NCBI GenBank assembly: GCA_019112945.1
Contig: DXIJ01000005.1
Location: forward strand, 1 to 32,924
Reading direction: 5' to 3'
Source of the DNA: Candidatus Monoglobus merdigallinarum
GTDB taxonomy: Bacteria > Bacillota > Clostridia > Monoglobales > Monoglobaceae
DNA length: 32,924 bases
The position numbers and the translations under genes are program-made. Every line of letters begins with the position of its first letter. Position 1 is the first letter of the stretch. Positions 541 through 25,890 of the stretch are shown here, piece by piece. The notes below the pieces were generated by a model, which had not been told where the DNA came from, ran no database searches, and saw nothing but the letters and a program-made list of their open reading frames with translations.

Positions 541-789
541 AGTACGCCTTAGTTTTAAGGCGTAGAAAAAACTTTGCCGAGAATATGCCCGTCATGTCCT
601 AATCCCTACTCGCTAATCTCTAATCTCTACGTTGGCTGCGCACCTATCGTGCTTGCTGTCGCAAGCCTGCCGATGTTTGCAGTAATCCCAAAACTTCGGA
701 TTACGTATAAACTTTAGCCGATAACAAACCCACCACGTCCTAATCCCTATTTACTAATCTCTAATCCCTACGTTGCCTTATATCTACGT

Positions 790-1227
790 TTATATCCCGT
801 TAAGATACAGCTCAAGCTCTCTTTGCAGCTCGGGGCTCCCCATGATAAACGTGAATATGAGTATAATTATCACAACAAAAATTATTGTAAGTATCAAGTT
901 GACAGCGACCATGATCAGAGATGCAATAGCCCAGTTTTTGGAGCTTTCCTCGAATTTATCCGAGCACGCCCAAACGATATACATGATGAGCGTCACGATT
1001 CCGCCTACAATTGGTATCCACGGCAAAAGCATTCTGCCTATCCAGCCTATAACCGAGACAGGCTGCTTTAAGGGCATACCGCCGAATACGGCCGGTCCGG
1101 GCGGCGGAGTATTCATGCCCCGGCTTCCTCCTCCGCTGTTTTGACGCCCGGGCTCCGCAACGGGCGCTTGACCGCACACGGCACATCTTCCGTTTACAAT
1201 GTCGCTTCCGCAGTTTGCACACTTCAT
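790..1227 (-). CDS. Small zinc-ribbon membrane protein
   Basis: The 145-residue protein begins with a double-cysteine zinc ribbon (CANC at residues 3-6, CAVC at 15-18), followed by a glycine- and proline-rich linker to about residue 50. Two hydrophobic stretches follow, about 57-88 and 98-130, the second long enough for one or two membrane segments. This zinc-ribbon plus membrane-anchor layout is common in Firmicutes proteins of unknown function. The ATG start is supported by GGGAGG about 8 bases upstream. It lies 21 bases downstream of the DUF4867 gene on the same strand and is probably cotranscribed with it. Its stop codon sits just before a repeat tail module. Function unknown. Confidence 0.8.
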   Translation of the reverse strand: MKCANCGSDIVNGRCAVCGQAPVAEPGRQNSGGGSRGMNTPPPGPAVFGGMPLKQPVSVIGWIGRMLLPWIPIVGGIVTLIMYIVWACSDKFEESSKNWAIASLIMVAVNLILTIIFVVIIILIFTFIMGSPELQRELELYLNGI

Positions 1228-9978: not shown

Positions 9979-12921
9979 ATGAGAAAGTATATCATCACGG
10001 TTATTTCAATAATACTGACGCTCTGTGCGTTTTCGGCAACGGGCGCGGCGGAGAGCTCTCTGCCCGCATTCCCCGGCGCGGAGGGCGGCGGAAAATACAC
10101 AGAGGGCGCAAGAGCAGGCGGCGCGGCCAGCGTCTATCATGTCACCAATCTAAACGCAAGCGGCGAGGGCTCCTTTGCGGATGCGGTATCGGAGCCAAAC
10201 CGCATAATCGTGTTTGACGTGGGCGGAGTTATCGATATGAAGGGCGATTCGCTCAGAATATCCGCCGACAATCTGACGATACTCGGCCAGACCGCGCCCG
10301 GGGACGGGATCACGATAACGGGCGGAGACCTTTTGCTTAACAATCAGGTCGAGCAGATAATTTTAAGATATATCCGCGTGAGGCCGACGGACAAATACGG
10401 CGGCGAGCCCGACGGCATAGGCGGCAGATGGAACAACCATATAATCATCGACCACTGCAGCACAAGCTGGGGCGTTGACGAGCTGCTGACGCTTTATGCG
10501 GGCTCAAGCGAAGACAGGACGCAGGGCGCAAACCTCACCGTTCAGAACACTATCGCCTCGGAAAGCCTTAAGATGTCCAACCACTTCAAGGGCTCTCACG
10601 GCTACGGCGCGATATGGGGAGCCACAAATTCCACCTGGCGCCTCAATCTGCTTGCTCATCACGACAGCAGAAGTCCGCGCCTTGACCGCGAGCTTCAAAA
10701 GACGGATATCAGAAACAATTGTTTCTACAACTGGGGGCTTAACAATTCCGCATACGGAGGCGAAGCATACTCCTACAATAACCAAACCCAAAACGGAACA
10801 TATGTAAACTGGGTGAACAACTACTATAAATACGGCCCCGGAACAAGCGCAAACAAGCGCAGCCGTATCTTTCAGTTCTCCGCTCCAAACGGCGGTGAAT
10901 CTCAGTTTTATGTAAACGGCAACTATGTGTACGGGTACGAGAGCGTGACGAATGACAACACTCTGGGGCTTGTTGACCCGGGGTATGTGACGCTTCTCGG
11001 CAGCGAGATTGATATGGGCGAGTATGCACTCCCGCACATGACCGCGGAGGAGGCATACGCGGAAGTACTCAAAAACGCGGGCGCAACGCTCCCGAGGCGC
11101 GACGCTATAGATGCAAGGATAATCGCGGATGTTAAAAATCAGACAGGCCGCATTATCAATAGTGCGGACGAAGTCGGCGGAGTGATAAATTCCGAGACCG
11201 TGACAAGGGTGTTTGAGATACCCTCTGATTGGAAAGAGGAACACGGCATGGGAAGCGCAAAAGAGACCGATATAGTAAACAGCGGCGAGTTTAAAGGCTA
11301 TACCTGGATAGAAGCGTATGTGAACGACCTGACAGAAGCACAGCCGGACCCGGCAAATCCATCAGTCATCGTCACATACCCGGCTATTCAGGCATTAAGC
11401 GACACCATAGACGGCGAGACGGTCACAAACGAAAACTGGCTCGTGCTGAGCGAGGGCGAGAGCTTTAACTACAAGGCCGCCGTCAAAGCCCAAAGCGGGA
11501 CAGAGCTTTCAAGAATCAAAATTTACGACGGCAGCGAGCTTATAGATACTATTAACGGCCTGAGCGGCGAGAGCTATACCCTAAACCGCGAGGTAACACT
11601 CAATCCGGGCACGCACTATATGACGCTGAGGGTCTATAACGACAGAGGCGAGGCGACCCAAAGCCCGACCTCTATAGTATATGTCAAAGGGGAGCAGGAG
11701 AGCACGGCAGGATTTTCACATGCTCAAATCGGCAGCACGCCGTTCGGCGAAAAAGGCGGCTCGTGGTACGGCAGCGGAACATATCATATCTTCGGCAGCG
11801 GCAAGATCACCTCTACCACCAATACATCCGACAACTCCTCGGGCAGCACCCAAGACAGCTGTGACTTTATGTATTGCCGCGTTTCGGGCGATTTTGACAT
11901 CACGGTAGAGGTCGAGCAGGTTCCCAAGAACGAGAACGGGGCCGTCTGCGGGATAATGATGAGGGAGAGTCTGGATTCCGGTTCAAGAATGGCTTTTCTT
12001 GCGGACGGCTGGCTGAAATACGGCGAAAATGTAAAAGTCATAAGCAGAACCGAAACCGACAGGCGCGGAAGAGTGAAATATTTTGAAGACGGCAGGGGCA
12101 ATTCAATCGACAACAGCAGCGACTACGACACAAGCAAGGACGAATACAAACTGCCCAAATACCTGAGAATGCAGAGGACGGGCGACACTCTGACATTTTC
12201 GGTCTCAAACAGCGGCGCTGACTTTTCAGACAACGCAAGGCAGCCGCTCAGCATAAACTTTTCGGGGCTCAGTGACACGGTATACTTAGGGCTTGCCGCG
12301 GATTCATGCGAGGGTACGCCAATGAAAGATTTTATGTCCGAAGCAGTGTTCAGCAGCCTGAGCATAACCGGCACGGCCGCCCCCGAGCCAATACCGACTG
12401 CTACGCCAACGCCAACGCCTACAGCAACACCAACCGCAACGCCTACAGCAACACCAACGCCCACAGCTACACCAACGCCAACACCGACTGCAACGCCAAC
12501 GCCTACAGCAACGCCAACGCCAACACCTACCGCAACACCAACACCCACGCCTACGCTAACAGCAACACCGACCGCTACACCAACGCCAACACCGACTGCA
12601 ACACCGACTTTGGCACCTACGCCTACGCCTACATTAAGACCCGGGGTATATTATGACAAAGCCCCGGCGACTGATGGAAGCGCGGTTACAGCAACGGCGG
12701 TCAACAACAGCTCCGGCCGTGCAGCAGTGATAATATGCGTATACGAGCAAGACACCGAGATACTCAGCGAGATATTTATTGAGCCTATTGAGCCGGGTGA
12801 AGTGAAGCATATCGAAAAGGATATCGGCAATACCGGCAAGCCTGTAAAGGTCATGCTATGGGATGAGAATATGTCTCCCGTGTGTACGCCGTCAGTTTTC
12901 GGCGCTGCGCAGGAGGCATAG
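9979..12921 (+). CDS. Secreted multidomain pectate lyase (PL1-like)
   Basis: An extracellular enzyme expected to cleave polygalacturonate by beta-elimination. The 980-residue protein begins with a signal peptide ([26 protein letters not shown]). The right-handed beta-helix lyase domain spans about residues 28-400, with the family opening [31 protein letters not shown] and [10 protein letters not shown], and [12 protein letters not shown] in the active-site region. An Ig-like region (about 465-570) is followed by a concanavalin-like or carbohydrate-binding-like domain (about 575-800), a threonine/proline linker (about 805-887) and a C-terminal module of about 90 residues. No LPXTG, SLH or dockerin motif was seen, so it is probably secreted free or bound through an unrecognised module. 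GGAGG precedes the ATG. The family assignment is from motif recall; precise activity is inferred. Confidence 0.88.
12394..12640 (+). repeat. In-gene tandem repeat encoding a Thr-Pro linker
   Basis: About 245 bases of six-base-like units (CAACGCCAACGCCTACAGCA and variants) encode alternating TPTP and TATP. Low-complexity linkers of this type join domains in secreted glycan-degrading enzymes and are often O-glycosylated. The DNA repeat is prone to copy-number change; since most units are six bases, length changes would usually keep frame. Confidence 0.9.
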
Positions 12922-19893: not shown

Positions 19894-20925
19894 ATGGCAA
19901 AAGTTGTTACAATGGGCGAAATCATGCTCAGATTATCCACACCGGGTAATGAAAAATTTATTCAGGCTGATGAATTTGACGTATGCTACGGCGGCGGTGA
20001 AGCAAACGTAGCGGTATCGCTTGCAAACTACGGTCATGACGCTGAATTTGTTACCGCTGTTCCCGACAATCCGATCGGAGAATGCGCTGTCGCAGCGCTC
20101 CGCAAGATGAATGTCAAGACCGATAACATCGCAAAATGCGGCGAAAGGCTTGGTATATACTTCCTGGAGACAGGCGCTTCGATGAGGGCTTCAAACGTCG
20201 TTTATGACAGGGCTCATTCTTCGATCTCTACGGCTACGGCTGCCGACTTTGATTTTGACAAAATCTTTGACGGCGCAGACTGGTTCCACTTCACAGGTAT
20301 CACTCCTGCTGTTTCGGACGCTGCCGCAGAGCTCACAGAGGCTGCTCTTAAGGCTGCAAAGGCTAAGGGCGTTAAGGTCTCGGTCGACCTCAACTTCCGC
20401 AAGAAGCTGTGGTCAAGCGAAAAGGCTCAGAAGATCATGACAAACCTCATGCAGTATGTTGACGTCTGCATCGGCAACGAGGAGGACGCTGAAAAGGTTC
20501 TCGGCTTCAAGCCGGGCGCAACGGATGTTACAAGCGGTGACCTTGAGCTCGCCGGCTATGAGGACATCTTCAAGCAGATGGTTGACAAATTTAACTTTGA
20601 GTACGTTATAAGCTCGCTCAGAGTAAGCCACTCGGCGTCTGACAACGGCTGGTCGGCTTGTATCTACTCAAGAGACACAAAGGAATTTTATCATTCCAAG
20701 GAATACAGCATTCATCCCATTGTTGACCGCGTAGGCGGCGGCGATTCTTTTGCCGGCGGTACAATCTGCGGCTTCCTCGATGGAAAGAACTTTAAGGACG
20801 CTTTGGAATTCGGTGTTGCAGCTTCGGCTCTCAAGCACACTATCCCCGGCGACTTTAACCTTGTTTCACGCGCTGACGTTGAGAACCTCGTCGGCGGAGA
20901 CGGCAGCGGCCGTGTTCAGAGATAA
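19894..20925 (+). CDS. kdgK: 2-keto-3-deoxygluconate kinase
   Basis: Phosphorylates 2-keto-3-deoxygluconate to KDPG, the substrate of the adjacent Eda. The 343-residue PfkB-family sugar kinase opens with MAKVVTMGEIMLRLS, has the GGGEANVA substrate-binding loop near residue 33 and the ATP/anion-hole motif DRVGGGDSFAGG with the catalytic aspartate (about residue 283). The pairing with eda supports KDG as substrate rather than fructose or ribose. AGGAG precedes the ATG. A hairpin terminator follows. Confidence 0.9.
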   Translation: MAKVVTMGEIMLRLSTPGNEKFIQADEFDVCYGGGEANVAVSLANYGHDAEFVTAVPDNPIGECAVAALRKMNVKTDNIAKCGERLGIYFLETGASMRASNVVYDRAHSSISTATAADFDFDKIFDGADWFHFTGITPAVSDAAAELTEAALKAAKAKGVKVSVDLNFRKKLWSSEKAQKIMTNLMQYVDVCIGNEEDAEKVLGFKPGATDVTSGDLELAGYEDIFKQMVDKFNFEYVISSLRVSHSASDNGWSACIYSRDTKEFYHSKEYSIHPIVDRVGGGDSFAGGTICGFLDGKNFKDALEFGVAASALKHTIPGDFNLVSRADVENLVGGDGSGRVQR

Positions 20926-21028: not shown

Positions 21029-21068
21029 GCGATATGATCGCATTAATATTTCTTATGGTTTTCACCAT

Positions 21069-21157
21069 AAAAGCAATATAGCCGCCCATCTGGCCAAAGG
21101 GACGGCTATAAATTCATGTTCTTTTGGCTAACCTAACTTTAGGGTTGCCTTTTATCT
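21069..21157 (-). ncRNA. Predicted small RNA, copy 2 (about 89 nt)
   Basis: Same plan as copies 1 and 3: start region GCAGATAAAAGG, a 24-base hairpin (21126-21149), and a 3' terminator stem (TATAGCCG at 21077-21084 with CGGCTATA at 21103-21110) followed by GCTTTTATGG. On the opposite strand, a 16-codon ORF (21034-21081) ends in the same residues (IKAI-stop) as the peptide next to copy 3 but has no ribosome-binding site, so this copy looks like an antitoxin-like RNA with a decayed partner. Confidence 0.6.
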
Positions 21158-21393
21158 GCTTTTATTATATATTTTTTTCTTAAATTTGTCAAGGACGTTT
21201 GTTTTCTTAAATTGGGTTTTAAGTTATCGAATTTTTATTTCAGCCTCTCCCTCGCCTGCGTCAAAGCAAGCTGCGCTTGTTCGTTTTTGCTCAAAGAGCA
21301 AAAAGCTCACCCGCTGCGCTGCTTTTCCTTTCAAACAAAAGTCCGCTGCGCCGGGACTTTTGTTTGGTTAAGTCTTTGCAAGCCTGCCGAAGT
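21122..21393. repeat. 270-bp direct repeat, first copy
   Basis: Nearly identical to 22175-22444. The identity covers the small-RNA 5' hairpin, promoter and about 200 bases upstream of the promoter, including the CAAACAAAAGTCC hairpin. The copies differ by substitutions and a 5-base length difference in the GCCTC region, which argues against a shared reading frame. Recombination between them would delete the peptide locus. Confidence 0.8.
21164..21192 (-). promoter_or_regulatory. Perfect consensus promoter of small-RNA copy 2
   Basis: On the minus strand, TTGACA (21187-21192), a 17-base spacer and TATAAT (21164-21169) match consensus at every position. The predicted start is near 21157. Confidence 0.75.
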
Positions 21394-21472
21394 TTGCACC
21401 AACCAAAATTGTTATTTGGTTAGATAACTATCACACGCCTGTATACTCAACACTTTGCTAAAGGTGCTGACC

Positions 21473-21622
21473 CAAACTACGGCAGGTGAGCCCTTGGGCG
21501 AACACGTTAGGTGCGGAGGCGAGAGTTAGTTTATAATTAGACGGATTCTATTATCTTTAATTGCTGTCTCTGCCGCGCCTGCGCGCCTATCGCGTTCGCT
21601 AACGCTCACCTACCGAAGTTTG
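21473..21622. repeat. Inverted-arm (BIME-like) palindromic module in R2
   Basis: Left arm CAAACTACGGCAGGTGAGC (21473-21491) and right arm GCTCACCTACCGAAGTTTG (21604-21622) are near-perfect reverse complements, and pairing continues inward through GCGAAC...AGGTGCGGAGGCG to the AT-rich centre at about 21532-21570. It matches the R1 module at 396-540. Confidence 0.75.
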
Positions 21623-21932
21623 CACTTATCCGAAAGTTTTTAGGATAAACTCAATATTTGACTGAGAACAAACCCGTCACGTCCTAATCCCTGCGTCGGA
21701 GCGAGAGCGTCGCATAGAATATTTTAAGTTGCTTATACTATCTGCCCATTTCCGCGCCTGCGCACCTCCGCGCTCACTCCGTTCGCCTGCCGATGTTTGC
21801 ATTAACCAAAAATGTTATTTGGTTAGATAACTATCCCACGCCTGCATACTCAACACTTTGCCGAGTATAAACCCGCCCAAGTCCTATTCTCTATTCGCTA
21901 ATCTCTAATCCCTACGTTCCTACGTTCCTACG

Positions 21933-21961
21933 TTGACATAATATATCATTTATTGTATAAT
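21933..21961 (+). promoter_or_regulatory. Perfect consensus promoter of the peptide gene
   Basis: TTGACA (21933-21938), a 17-base spacer and TATAAT (21956-21961) match the housekeeping consensus fully. The predicted start is near 21968, giving a leader of about 75 bases. The -35 element lies across the end of a repeat tail (ACGTTG), so the repeat contributes half of it. Confidence 0.75.
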
Positions 21962-22000
21962 ATTGTCAGCAGATAAACAGGTAATTGAAGGACGGTTAGC

Positions 22001-22036
22001 CATCTCCTGCGCTGCGGCTGCAGCAGAAAGGAGGTG
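22001..22036 (+). promoter_or_regulatory. Stem-loop that would hide the peptide ribosome-binding site
   Basis: CATCTCCT (22001-22008) pairs with AGGAGGTG (22029-22036) over 8 bp including one G-U, and an inner stem GCTGC (22011-22015) with GCAGC (22020-22024) closes the loop. AGGAGGTG is the ribosome-binding site of the peptide, six bases before its ATG. Such sequestration is a known feature of type I toxin messengers. The folding is by eye, not calculated. Confidence 0.6.
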
Positions 22037-22042
22037 TCGCTT

Positions 22043-22117
22043 ATGTGGAACACAATAATTAAGTTTATTGTATCTATTATACTTATTTATATGATAGTGT
22101 CCATAAAAGCAATATAG
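22043..22117 (+). CDS. 24-residue hydrophobic peptide, candidate type I toxin
   Basis: The ORF is too short for the supplied track: MWNTIIKFIVSIILIYMIVSIKAI. It is nearly all hydrophobic with one lysine near each end, long enough for a single membrane helix. It has an exceptionally good ribosome-binding site (AAAGGAGGTG, six bases before ATG) and a perfect upstream promoter. The final codons and stop lie inside a hairpin (22111-22148) that also terminates an opposite-strand RNA. Small membrane-active peptides with an antisense RNA sharing the terminator are the plan of known type I toxin-antitoxin loci such as Fst/par and TxpA/RatA. Sequence similarity to those peptides is not evident. A leader peptide or chance ORF is the alternative. 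Confidence 0.6.
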   Translation: MWNTIIKFIVSIILIYMIVSIKAI

Positions 22118-22210
22118 CCGTTCCTCCGGTCAAGGAAATGGCTATATTATTAATTATTAATTATTAATATACCTTTTTGGCTAACCTAACTTTAGGTTTA
22201 CCTTTTATCT
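22105..22210 (-). ncRNA. Predicted antisense small RNA, copy 3 (about 106 nt)
   Basis: Convergent to the peptide gene. It has the GCAGATAAAAGG start, the 24-base hairpin (22179-22202), an AT-rich insertion of TTAATTA repeats absent from the other copies, and a terminator stem (AATATAGCC at 22111-22119 with GGCTATATT at 22140-22148, plus TTCCT with AGGAA inside) followed by GCTTTTATGG. Its 3' end is antisense to the last four or so codons of the peptide and to the messenger's 3' untranslated region. The role as antitoxin is inference. Confidence 0.6.
22111..22148. terminator. Shared terminator hairpin of peptide gene and small RNA
   Basis: The 9-bp outer stem (AATATAGCC/GGCTATATT) plus inner TTCCT/AGGAA spans the peptide stop codon. 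The minus-strand side is followed by GCTTTTATGG. The plus-strand side is AT-rich (ATTAATTATT) rather than a clean T-run, so termination in that direction is less sure. Confidence 0.6.
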
Positions 22211-22444
22211 GCTTTTATTATATATTTTTTTCTTAAATTTGTCAAGGTCTTTTGTTTTCTTAAATTGGGTTTTAAGTTATCGAATTTTTATTTCAGCCTC
22301 TGCCTACGTCAAAGCAAGCTCCGCTTGTTCGTTTTTGCTCAAAGAGCAAAAAGCTCACCCACTGCGCTGCTTTTCCTTTCAAACAAAAGTCCGCTGCGCC
22401 GGGACTTTTGTTTGGTTAAGCAAGCCTTGCCTACCGAAGTTTGC
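22175..22444. repeat. 270-bp direct repeat, second copy (part of R3)
   Basis: Counterpart of 21122-21393. It continues into a GTTTGCA-plus-hairpin module (22451-22464) and a tail ending in CCCTACGTTGG (22503-22541). The tail reads into the 3' end of the ABC permease gene. No credible gene was found in 22118-22518. Confidence 0.8.
22217..22245 (-). promoter_or_regulatory. Perfect consensus promoter of small-RNA copy 3
   Basis: On the minus strand, TTGACA (22240-22245), 17 bases and TATAAT (22217-22222) match consensus fully and face the peptide gene. The predicted start is near 22210. Confidence 0.75.
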
Positions 22445-22518
22445 AGAACACCTTAATTTTAAGGCGTAGAAAAAACTTTACCGAGAGTAAGCCCGTCACA
22501 CGCCCTAATACCTATTCC

Positions 22519-23700
22519 CTAATCTCTAATCCCTACGTTGGCGGCTGTCTCCCGCAAAGCAGGGTATATACCGGCAAGTGCGGCAAAGACCGCCGAGAAC
22601 AGCACCGGCAGCAGCACTGCGGGTATCAAAAACCAATCTATGATCACGCCGACGCCGCTTATCATGCACACTGCGGCGCCGATACCGACCCCTATAAGCG
22701 CACCGGCCAGCGAACCGAAAAATGCGCACAGCACGCATACAAATTCCTTTTTCAAAAACGCTGCCGTCTTAGTATGCCCGCGCGGGAGCTTCTCCCTGCT
22801 TGACGGGTACAGCGCAAACATCATAAGCATAAGCCCGCTTATAACCAAAAGCGCGGCAAAAATTCCCAGAACTGTCATGTTATAAGAACTTCCGCCCTCG
22901 GTCAAATTCAGGCTGAATTCCGTACTGCGCGAAATATCCGAGACATATTTAAAAATATCGTCATACGCCCTGCCGGGACTTGTGACCGAAAATATGTATT
23001 CGGTTATGTTGTTTGAGTTCATAAGCAGCCGCGCGCTCGTGTACGGGATCACCGCCAGGCTCCCGGGGCTGTAGCCGGAGCTGCCCGTCATAACGCCTTT
23101 GACGGTGAATATGCGCCCGCCGAGCCTTATCTCCTGCCCCACGGGGTCGGCTTCTCCGAAAACAGAATCTGCAAGCTCACGGCTTATGACCGCCTCCGCT
23201 CTCCTTGCGTTTGTATCAGCCGCCGTGAACCCCTCGCCGCCCGCAAAATCAACGGGTGCGTTCTCAAAAAATGTCTCGTCGGACGCCAGCACGGCGCAGC
23301 CCGCCGCCGTGCTTCCGGCGGAGGCTTCGATATTTTCGATCCGCTGTGCCGGAGTGACCGCTCTTACATATTCACTTTCAAGCTCTCTTAATGCGCCGAT
23401 ATCTATTCCCGAATCCGCACTTCCGAGGCTCAGGGCAATACTGCCCAAGCCATACGGGTTTTTGCTGTAGCCCGCAGCGGTATCGCTTGAGCGCTGCCAC
23501 AGCAGATATGATGAAATAACCGCCAGGGCAACAACAAAGCCCAGCGCGGCTATAAGCGCCTGGGTCTTGTTTTTCTTTATTTCCGAAACGGCCGCGGCAG
23601 ACGCAGCCCTGAGACTGCCGCCCCGCCGTATTTTTACCGTTTCGCTTAAATTTTCATTCGCTTTACTTTTAAATCTCATCGCTAACTTCCTGATAATCAT
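22519..23700 (-). CDS. MacB/FtsX-type ABC transporter permease, C-terminus altered by repeat
   Basis: A 393-residue membrane protein. One membrane segment (about 47-68) is followed by a large extracytoplasmic MacB-like domain (REAELADSV-type region EAVISRELADSVFGEADPVGQEIRLGG is covered in part by the motif VISRELADSVFG) and three C-terminal membrane segments ending in FAALAGIYPALRETAA. MacB relatives continue YPA...A..DP..ALR at this point; here the last residues NVGIRD and the stop are encoded by the repeat tail. The start may instead be the ATG at 23677-23679 (AGGAAG precedes it). It follows the adaptor gene by 21 bases, fitting an adaptor-permease exporter. No ATPase gene is present on either side. 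Confidence 0.82.
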   Translation of the reverse strand: MIIRKLAMRFKSKANENLSETVKIRRGGSLRAASAAAVSEIKKNKTQALIAALGFVVALAVISSYLLWQRSSDTAAGYSKNPYGLGSIALSLGSADSGIDIGALRELESEYVRAVTPAQRIENIEASAGSTAAGCAVLASDETFFENAPVDFAGGEGFTAADTNARRAEAVISRELADSVFGEADPVGQEIRLGGRIFTVKGVMTGSSGYSPGSLAVIPYTSARLLMNSNNITEYIFSVTSPGRAYDDIFKYVSDISRSTEFSLNLTEGGSSYNMTVLGIFAALLVISGLMLMMFALYPSSREKLPRGHTKTAAFLKKEFVCVLCAFFGSLAGALIGVGIGAAVCMISGVGVIIDWFLIPAVLLPVLFSAVFAALAGIYPALRETAANVGIRD

Positions 23701-23721: not shown

Positions 23722-25890
23722 CTACAGGTCTGTCACTCCTGTAGCCGACCTGCCCGTTGACCTCACGTTCTCTCCGCTTGTGTCTTCACCGCCGCCTGCA
23801 CTTTCTCCGCCGCTTCCGTCAGCATCCCCGCTGCCTGACGGTGACGGCGACACAGCCGGTACGACATCCCCGGCTTCATCCGGGTTGTACAGAACGCTGT
23901 CGCCGACCCTAAGGCCGGAAAGTATCTCAACACTCGCACCGTCGCTGAGCCCGTACTGTATCTTGGCAAGCTGATAACCCTCGGGCACCTCTATATCCGG
24001 ATAATCCGCAGGGTTTACCATATTCTCCTCCGTCAGGCTTGACGAATCGGTCACTACCAGGGCGTGCGAGCCGTCTGATTCATAAAGCGCATTGCTCGGA
24101 AGCGTCAAAACATTTATTGCAGAATTGATAATAATCTTAGCGTCAACATTCATGCCTGATTTGAGCCGTCCCGGCTCCGATACGCTGATCTCGACCGCAT
24201 AGGCCGTAACGCCGTCGCCCTTTTTCTCGCCCTGACCTGCAATGTTGGTAATCTCGCCGCTGAATGTCTCGCCCGGGAGCGCGTTCGCCGTTATAACGAC
24301 CGTCTGACCCAGCTCAACATTCCAGATATCAAGCTCGTCCACATCGATCGTGAACTTCATTCTGCTCATATCCGCTATGACCATAAGCGGCTCGCCGCTT
24401 CCATCTGCGCTTACGTTATCGCCTATTTTCGCATTCTTGACAAGTATTGTGCCGTCTATCGGAGAAGCTATCCTGTACTTTTCAAGCTCTTTCTGCGCCT
24501 GCTCGAGAGCAAGCTCCGCAGACTCCCTGTCAAGCTCGCGGTTCTCCGACGTGCCCGAAGCGTCGCTCCTGAGCGTGGCTATGACCTGTCCCGCCGTAAC
24601 GTTTGCGCCGTTTCTGACGCTCACGCTCTGAACCGTACCGGTCACGGACGGTATAAGCGCGATCTCCGCACCGCCAGCCTGGGTTATGGTGGCTATCTTG
24701 CCGCCGTTTATCGTGCTTCCGGCCGAAATATTGAGGTCGCTTATAACGCCGGTCGCGTTTGCATAAATCCTGAGGTCGGTTGTCGATGACGATGACGACG
24801 AGGCCGTCTGCGAACGCCTGACTGCATTCTCGGCCTGCTGCACCGCCAGCTGGGCGTTGGTATCGTCAATTTTGTAGACCAGCTCGCCCGCTCTGACCGC
24901 TTCGCCCGCATTGAGCGGCGATTCTGTGACCGCACCGCTGACAAGCGGGGTTATATTATATGTTGCATTAGGCTCCACATTGCCCGCCGCCGACATAGTT
25001 TTAATAATATTTCCCTTAACCGCATAGACCTCGCTGTAGCCCATGAGCGGGTCAAACGGATATCTGAACGCAATTATCGTGCCCACCAGGGCGGCGATAA
25101 CAACCACTGCCGCGCACGCGCCCACGATGAACCATCTGCGCTTTTTCAGGAACGCCCTGAATTTGCCCGGCTGCTCAGGCTCGTCCTCCTCCTCCTCGAT
25201 ATCATCGAGGTCGTAATACGACTTTTCCGTCACCTCGGAACGTATGCTCCGCGGCGCGTATGCCGCGTACACAAGCTCCTTATCAAAGGTATCGTTTATT
25301 TCATCTTCGCCTGCCGGGGCTTCCGCCTCTTCGCTCACGGACGGCTCATCCTCCGTCCCGCCGGCAGCTGCGTCTGCCGTCTGCACGTCCTCCGGGCTGT
25401 ATTCCTCTCCGTATGCCAGCAAGGAATCCTCCAGCCGGCGGCTGCGGCTCTCTGACACATAATCATGCGTCCTGCCGGCCGCACGTTCAATCTCTCCGGC
25501 GTCCATCTCTCCCGTACTGCCGCCGTCCTGCGCGTCGTCATATACCACGTCCGTATCCAACTCATCCGTATAATCATCAGAGAGCTCTGTATTCTCAAAG
25601 CCGCTTTCATAATCCTCCAAGTCACCGCCGTGCTCCGGCGCACTGCCGTAAGGCTCATCCTCCGCCATACTGTCTTTAAAAACGTCAAAAGCACCGTCAT
25701 TTAAAAATGCGGCGTCATTCTCCTGAGGATAACCCTCGGGCGTATCCTTGCTGTTTGCATCACTGTTCTCATCAAGAATTTTTTCCGGATTAAAGCTGCT
25801 CTCATCGCTTAGGCTGTCATATGCCTTCTTAAGCTCACTGTTCTCTTTGACTTTATTCTTATCGGAAAACAATTTATCAAAAAAACTCAT
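23722..25890 (-). CDS. Membrane-fusion (HlyD/MacA-type) adaptor with long acidic N-terminus
   Basis: A 722-residue protein. Residues 1 to about 250 are an unusual acidic, low-complexity cytoplasmic region. One membrane segment (about 252-275, RWFIVGACAAVVVIAALVG) follows, then the adaptor fold: barrel-sandwich half (LVSGAVTESPLNAGEAVRAGELVYKIDD), a helical hairpin, second lipoyl half (ASPIDGTILVKNAKIGDNVSADG) and beta-barrel (VELGQTVVITANALPGETFSGEITNI). A Ser/Gly-rich tail ends the protein. Adaptors of this type link an inner-membrane MacB-like permease to substrate export. GAGG precedes the ATG. The permease follows directly. Confidence 0.88.
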   Translation of the reverse strand: MSFFDKLFSDKNKVKENSELKKAYDSLSDESSFNPEKILDENSDANSKDTPEGYPQENDAAFLNDGAFDVFKDSMAEDEPYGSAPEHGGDLEDYESGFENTELSDDYTDELDTDVVYDDAQDGGSTGEMDAGEIERAAGRTHDYVSESRSRRLEDSLLAYGEEYSPEDVQTADAAAGGTEDEPSVSEEAEAPAGEDEINDTFDKELVYAAYAPRSIRSEVTEKSYYDLDDIEEEEDEPEQPGKFRAFLKKRRWFIVGACAAVVVIAALVGTIIAFRYPFDPLMGYSEVYAVKGNIIKTMSAAGNVEPNATYNITPLVSGAVTESPLNAGEAVRAGELVYKIDDTNAQLAVQQAENAVRRSQTASSSSSSTTDLRIYANATGVISDLNISAGSTINGGKIATITQAGGAEIALIPSVTGTVQSVSVRNGANVTAGQVIATLRSDASGTSENRELDRESAELALEQAQKELEKYRIASPIDGTILVKNAKIGDNVSADGSGEPLMVIADMSRMKFTIDVDELDIWNVELGQTVVITANALPGETFSGEITNIAGQGEKKGDGVTAYAVEISVSEPGRLKSGMNVDAKIIINSAINVLTLPSNALYESDGSHALVVTDSSSLTEENMVNPADYPDIEVPEGYQLAKIQYGLSDGASVEILSGLRVGDSVLYNPDEAGDVVPAVSPSPSGSGDADGSGGESAGGGEDTSGENVRSTGRSATGVTDL

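Follow-up and report, generated by a model that had tools for sequence, protein, structure and literature searches.

A MacB-like permease gene of Candidatus Monoglobus merdigallinarum probably terminates within the outer edge of a dispersed intergenic repeat array

A MacB-like permease gene of Candidatus Monoglobus merdigallinarum most likely (with a probability of about 0.83) terminates within the outer edge of an intergenic repeat array of a kind dispersed in Monoglobus genomes, the arrays having replaced the original 3' DNA and codons. The gene (22519..23700, minus strand) lies in a window of 32,924 nt, the whole stretch of DNA analyzed here, and encodes a permease subunit of 393 aa that matches the MacB periplasmic core domain (MacB_PCD, PF12704; E = 2e-19); upstream of it on the same strand is a gene for a HlyD/MacA-like membrane-fusion protein (23722..25890). 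The 3' codons of the permease are CGG GAG ACA GCC GCC AAC GTA GGG ATT AGA GAT TAG (R E T A A N V G I R D and stop), and all of the last seven, from AAC onward, are repeat sequence: positions 22519-22539, CTAATCTCTAATCCCTACGTT as written in the window and AACGTAGGGATTAGAGATTAG when reverse-complemented, are identical to the repeat tail at 21 of 21 nt. This exact complement bears out the claim of the initial annotation that a repeat tail encodes the last residues and the stop of the permease. The span given there, 22503-22542, does contain the tail, but the tail starts at about 22505, its part inside the gene is limited to 22519-22539, and 22503-22518 lie beyond the stop. On the plus strand the tail (22505..22540) consists of the heptamers CTAATAC, CTATTCC, CTAATCT and CTAATCC followed by a terminal CTACGTT and a G, so that bases 22505-22518 fall past the permease stop and the G at 22540 is the tail's other end. 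It forms the outward-facing right end of a composite array of hairpin modules (21122..22540), which occupies the space between the gene at 19894-20925 (plus strand) and the permease and in which some modules are repeated (21122-21252 and 22175-22305; 21254-21372 and 22302-22420).

The tail is by no means restricted to this gene. A search with the 21-mer, allowing at most three mismatches, found 54 copies in the 1.5 Mb genome (30 forward and 24 reverse), whereas the reversed control gave none. Each of the 12 genomes of the genus, several of which are incomplete metagenome assemblies, carries the tail; with a slightly wider pattern, G008 has a single copy and every other genome between 8 and 67 copies (8-67), and a looser cut-off gives 131 tails in G010. 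A profile of 375 tails consists of approximately five heptamers CTANTCN (complement NGANTAG) that lead up to CTACGTT as the last unit, with G as the next base in 66%. Conservation declines slowly in the inward direction and breaks off abruptly on the outer side, and past the first outer base the bases outside the tail are scarcely conserved. The arrays are mosaics of palindromic modules and frequently have outward-pointing tails at both ends. In the window, a left-hand array has a tail copy at 613..633 (plus strand), and a further copy (754-774) with an extra outer CTACGTT (784-790) spans 754..792 (plus strand), where the TAA stop of a minus-strand gene (790-1227; complement of 790-792) overlaps the extra unit by 1 nt. 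The permease is thus one of dozens of cases rather than a one-off. A coincidence, with NVGIRD as the native end of the permease and merely repeat-like DNA beside it, is hardly credible. A native gene end can look tail-like by chance, as that of atpC does (see below), but here the identity is complete over 21 nt and runs on into further heptamers and the array, and none of the same-genus orthologs, all of which lack a tail at the stop, has an NVGIRD end. At the DNA level, a coincidental match is refuted by the copy number together with the exact match.

The 11 permease orthologs in the same genus share 28-34% identity with the permease and have varied ends (e.g., KRLGGGKHA, LASRKFKRGKIK and KWSKDERCSV), and none of them has a tail at its stop. 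With 34% as the best identity, no empty orthologous site of the permease is similar enough for an alignment, and a scan of 84,980 species genomes revealed no close permease relative. The initial annotation had attributed the lack of a DP..ALR-type C-terminus to the repeat; this does not hold, because the motif is also absent from all 11 tail-free orthologs and is seen only in more distant MacB relatives, and its absence from the permease is a trait of the subfamily that the repeat did not cause. Likewise, an ATPase gene had been supposed downstream, but none is present 3' of the permease: in 10 of the 11 same-genus relatives the next gene encodes a PAS-GGDEF protein, and here the array stands in its place. 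No full-length PAS-GGDEF ortholog was found elsewhere in this genome, only matches to the GGDEF domain with 34-35% identity; because the genome is 74% complete, we make no claim that the gene was lost or displaced.

To what extent tails have altered gene ends is evident from genes whose orthologs occur both with and without them. In cinA of this genome (G000) the tail supplies the stop, and the protein ends in DLIRR followed by EAT, whereas in 11 tail-free species DLIRR is followed by CALGLELKI, CALGIEIKI or other tail-free sequence. The CinA domain match still reaches nearly to its end in G000, and the alignment shows that codons of cinA were replaced by the tail and that insertion into the coding end was tolerated. 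The class III fructose-bisphosphatase of G000 ends in GLIK followed by QNSST at a tail, and its ten tail-free orthologs end in PKS, PKN, PKP or QAQ. In atpC, G003 and G010 carry CAACGTAGGGACTAG plus heptamers in comparison with CAGCGCAGGGACTGA in tail-free species, and G007 carries a hybrid in which the native codons CAGCGCAGGGACT are joined to tail heptamers; all of them encode a protein that ends in QRRD. The hybrid points to a junction within the shared AGGGACT, and the tail-free atpC end is already tail-like. The difference between the native codons with heptamers in G007 (L205) and the canonical tail in G003 and G010 (L206, L207) involves synonymous changes only, and gene conversion toward the canonical tail within the coding sequence is possible. 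In groEL the tail stands directly behind the stop in 6 of 11 species (TAC TAA, then CGTAG) and leaves the protein end unaltered, and in tadA the presence of a tail varies among close species. The aligned orthologs of cinA, the fructose-bisphosphatase gene and atpC demonstrate that the ends of these genes underwent insertion or recombination and that the change was tolerated. The earlier proposal that the repeat was inserted into, or recombined at, a gene end and tolerated thus stands for these sibling genes; for the permease we infer the replacement of its own last codons by analogy with them, since its native 3' end cannot be reconstructed from orthologs at 28-34% identity.

The composition of the tail accounts for the way in which genes end at it. 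The CTA present in each heptamer reads TAG from the opposite strand. Since the unit length is not divisible by three (7 = 1 mod 3), the three outermost units stop all three frames, with stops at -21, -14 and -7 counted from the end of the tail. A gene that enters an array therefore ends at most 21 nt from its edge, with NV.I.D, a QRRD-like sequence or T before the stop, or with a TAA at the junction. In a census of non-redundant tails over four sequence sets, with genes called by a simple ORF/hexamer scorer, 46 of the 140 tails that face a gene 3' end hold that gene's own stop codon within their 21 nt: 12 in the permease frame (NV.I.D), 6 as QRRD, 18 as T and 10 at the junction. Past the tail, 15 stops fall in the next 21 nt and 4 in the 21 nt after that, and none of 325 tails is located inside a gene. 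If the edge were placed uniformly within its own spacer, 7.0 ± 2.5 stops would be expected in the tail, although this null is rough in that insertions into last codons pile up at fixed distances. The same pattern could arise if the insertion machinery preferred stop codons or tail-like sequence through target specificity or microhomology, without purging of random insertions elsewhere. The excess exactly at the stop, the sharing of the AA of TAA in 8 junctions and of one base in 2 more, the position of the groEL tail in six species, the atpC hybrid of G007 and the tail-like end of tail-free atpC all speak for such a preference; the similar number of tails facing gene starts (124) and gene ends (140), the scarce conservation beyond the first outer base and the lack of a detectable target duplication speak against it, and we regard it as the less probable account, though one that deserves serious attention.

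The opposite side of an array may also be fitted to a functional element. For 12 of the 124 tails directed at a gene start, a -35-like hexamer begins precisely within the TTG of the tail (offset -2), in contrast to at most 3 for any other offset, and in six of the 12 both TTGACA and TATAAT are perfect. An internal tail copy in the window, followed by extra CTACGTT units (21898..21936, plus strand), opens with its final TTG a perfect TTGACA-17-TATAAT promoter (21933-21961, plus strand). The TTG of the tail also starts a TTGACA at L064:819, L068:5943 and L076:4039 in G000 and in other genomes. The sequences on the two sides suggest that arrays fill spacers right up to functional borders, namely stop codons and -35 boxes. 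It could be argued instead that the arrays are functional 3' modules, such as terminators or mRNA stabilizers like REP/BIME, which selection has placed behind stops, as would fit their palindromic modules and their abutment on the stops of the housekeeping genes groEL, proS, atpC, tadA and cinA. However, tails face gene starts about equally often, the predicted fold of the 124-nt transcript end that follows the permease is no more stable than those of shuffled sequences (z = -0.07), no Rfam match was found in the window, and the orthologous genes lack an array in many species, so we consider a role of this kind unlikely.

Under the preferred reading, that the permease ends within an array edge, a mobile or recombinational process would have brought in or expanded arrays in the permease spacer, and the arrays would have taken the place of the former downstream DNA and of the last permease codons, with the non-essential flank being lost. 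The new C-terminus would have been tolerated, perhaps because the C-terminal part is variable in this family, and arrays would be kept only as far as the functional borders, that is, the stop codon on one side and sometimes, on the other, the -35 box in which the TTG of the tail starts TTGACA. Insertions are rarely caught in the act, since G003 and G010 (95.5% identical in one compared region) have most array sites in common, and the array contents differ between them. Terminal inverted repeats are formed by outward-facing tails at both ends of 32 arrays, and many other arrays are one-ended. No target-site duplication was found beside the 32 two-ended arrays, nor in one clear filled/empty pair (tadA in G003 and G010). 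In the parts of genomes covered, 188 proteins were predicted from the DNA enclosed by inverted tails, and no recurrent transposase was found in this set; only host genes recurred (e.g., those for ribosomal S12/S7). An autonomous transposon with the same ends was rejected because no transposase is shared between the inverted tails of these parts, and a Y1/REP transposase was rejected as the mobilizer because PF01797 occurs in 2 of the 12 genomes and in neither G000 nor the tail-rich G010. A more far-reaching idea, which we offer as a rather improbable conjecture, is that the tail is a selected genus-wide edge element that closes the frames of the gene to one side and, toward the other neighbor, completes a -35 box, and that is spread by a recombination system joining at stop codons or tail-like sequence. 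If so, such an element would let arrays fill spacers completely with neither neighbor harmed.

Several known systems resemble these arrays in part. REP/BIME elements with RAYT (Y1) transposases have palindromic modules in intergenic arrays and in both orientations. The Monoglobus arrays are likewise intergenic with palindromic modules in both orientations, but a Y1 transposase is found in just 2 of the 12 genomes and is absent from tail-rich ones. Bacterial MITEs (RUP, Correia/NEMIS and ERIC) are dispersed and intergenic with inverted ends, some have stops in all frames, and in-frame gene fusions are known (Delihas, PMC2229807). The Monoglobus arrays share the dispersal, the intergenic location, the inverted ends and the all-frame stops, but have neither a detected target-site duplication nor a detected related transposase, and differ in their mosaic, highly variable interior and heptamer-iteration ends. 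Frame-independent stops at ORF ends have been described for the TAACTGA heptanucleotide direct repeats of Beggiatoaceae (MacGregor 2015, PMC4679880), which are similar to the Monoglobus tail in this respect. Those repeats form simple tandem series that for the most part immediately precede start codons (PMC4679880), whereas the unit here is CTANTCN, and its iterations make up the outward edge of palindromic, mosaic arrays, with CTACGTT(G) as the fixed terminus. In the open-licence literature, we found no description of the repeat in Monoglobus or Clostridia. With its states with and without repeat in named genes (cinA, the fructose-bisphosphatase gene, atpC, tadA and groEL), the genus provides an unusually clear case of repeats altering the ends of essential as well as ordinary genes. 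It illustrates how a short repeat unit with a length not divisible by three yields a frame-independent stop, and why repeats of this kind can occupy intergenic space; annotated C-termini in Monoglobus genomes may be repeat-derived.

The array beside the permease also contains, at 22043-22117 (plus strand), a reading frame for a hydrophobic peptide of 24 residues, MWNTIIKFIVSIILIYMIVSIKAI, with a ribosome site and the perfect sigma-70 promoter at 21933-21961 described above. A second perfect promoter on the opposite strand (22245-22217, minus strand) faces it, and a partial second copy with its reverse promoter is located at 21054-21192. The peptide has no Pfam match, and the locus looks like a type I toxin-antitoxin locus. 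Elsewhere in the window, a Pro-Thr-Ala repeat linker of 12-bp and 18-bp units (12363-12644, plus strand) lies near the C-terminus of a large protein (9979-12921). Finally, repeat modules in inverse orientation occupy the right end of the contig (32788-32924), where the assembly break is probably such an array.
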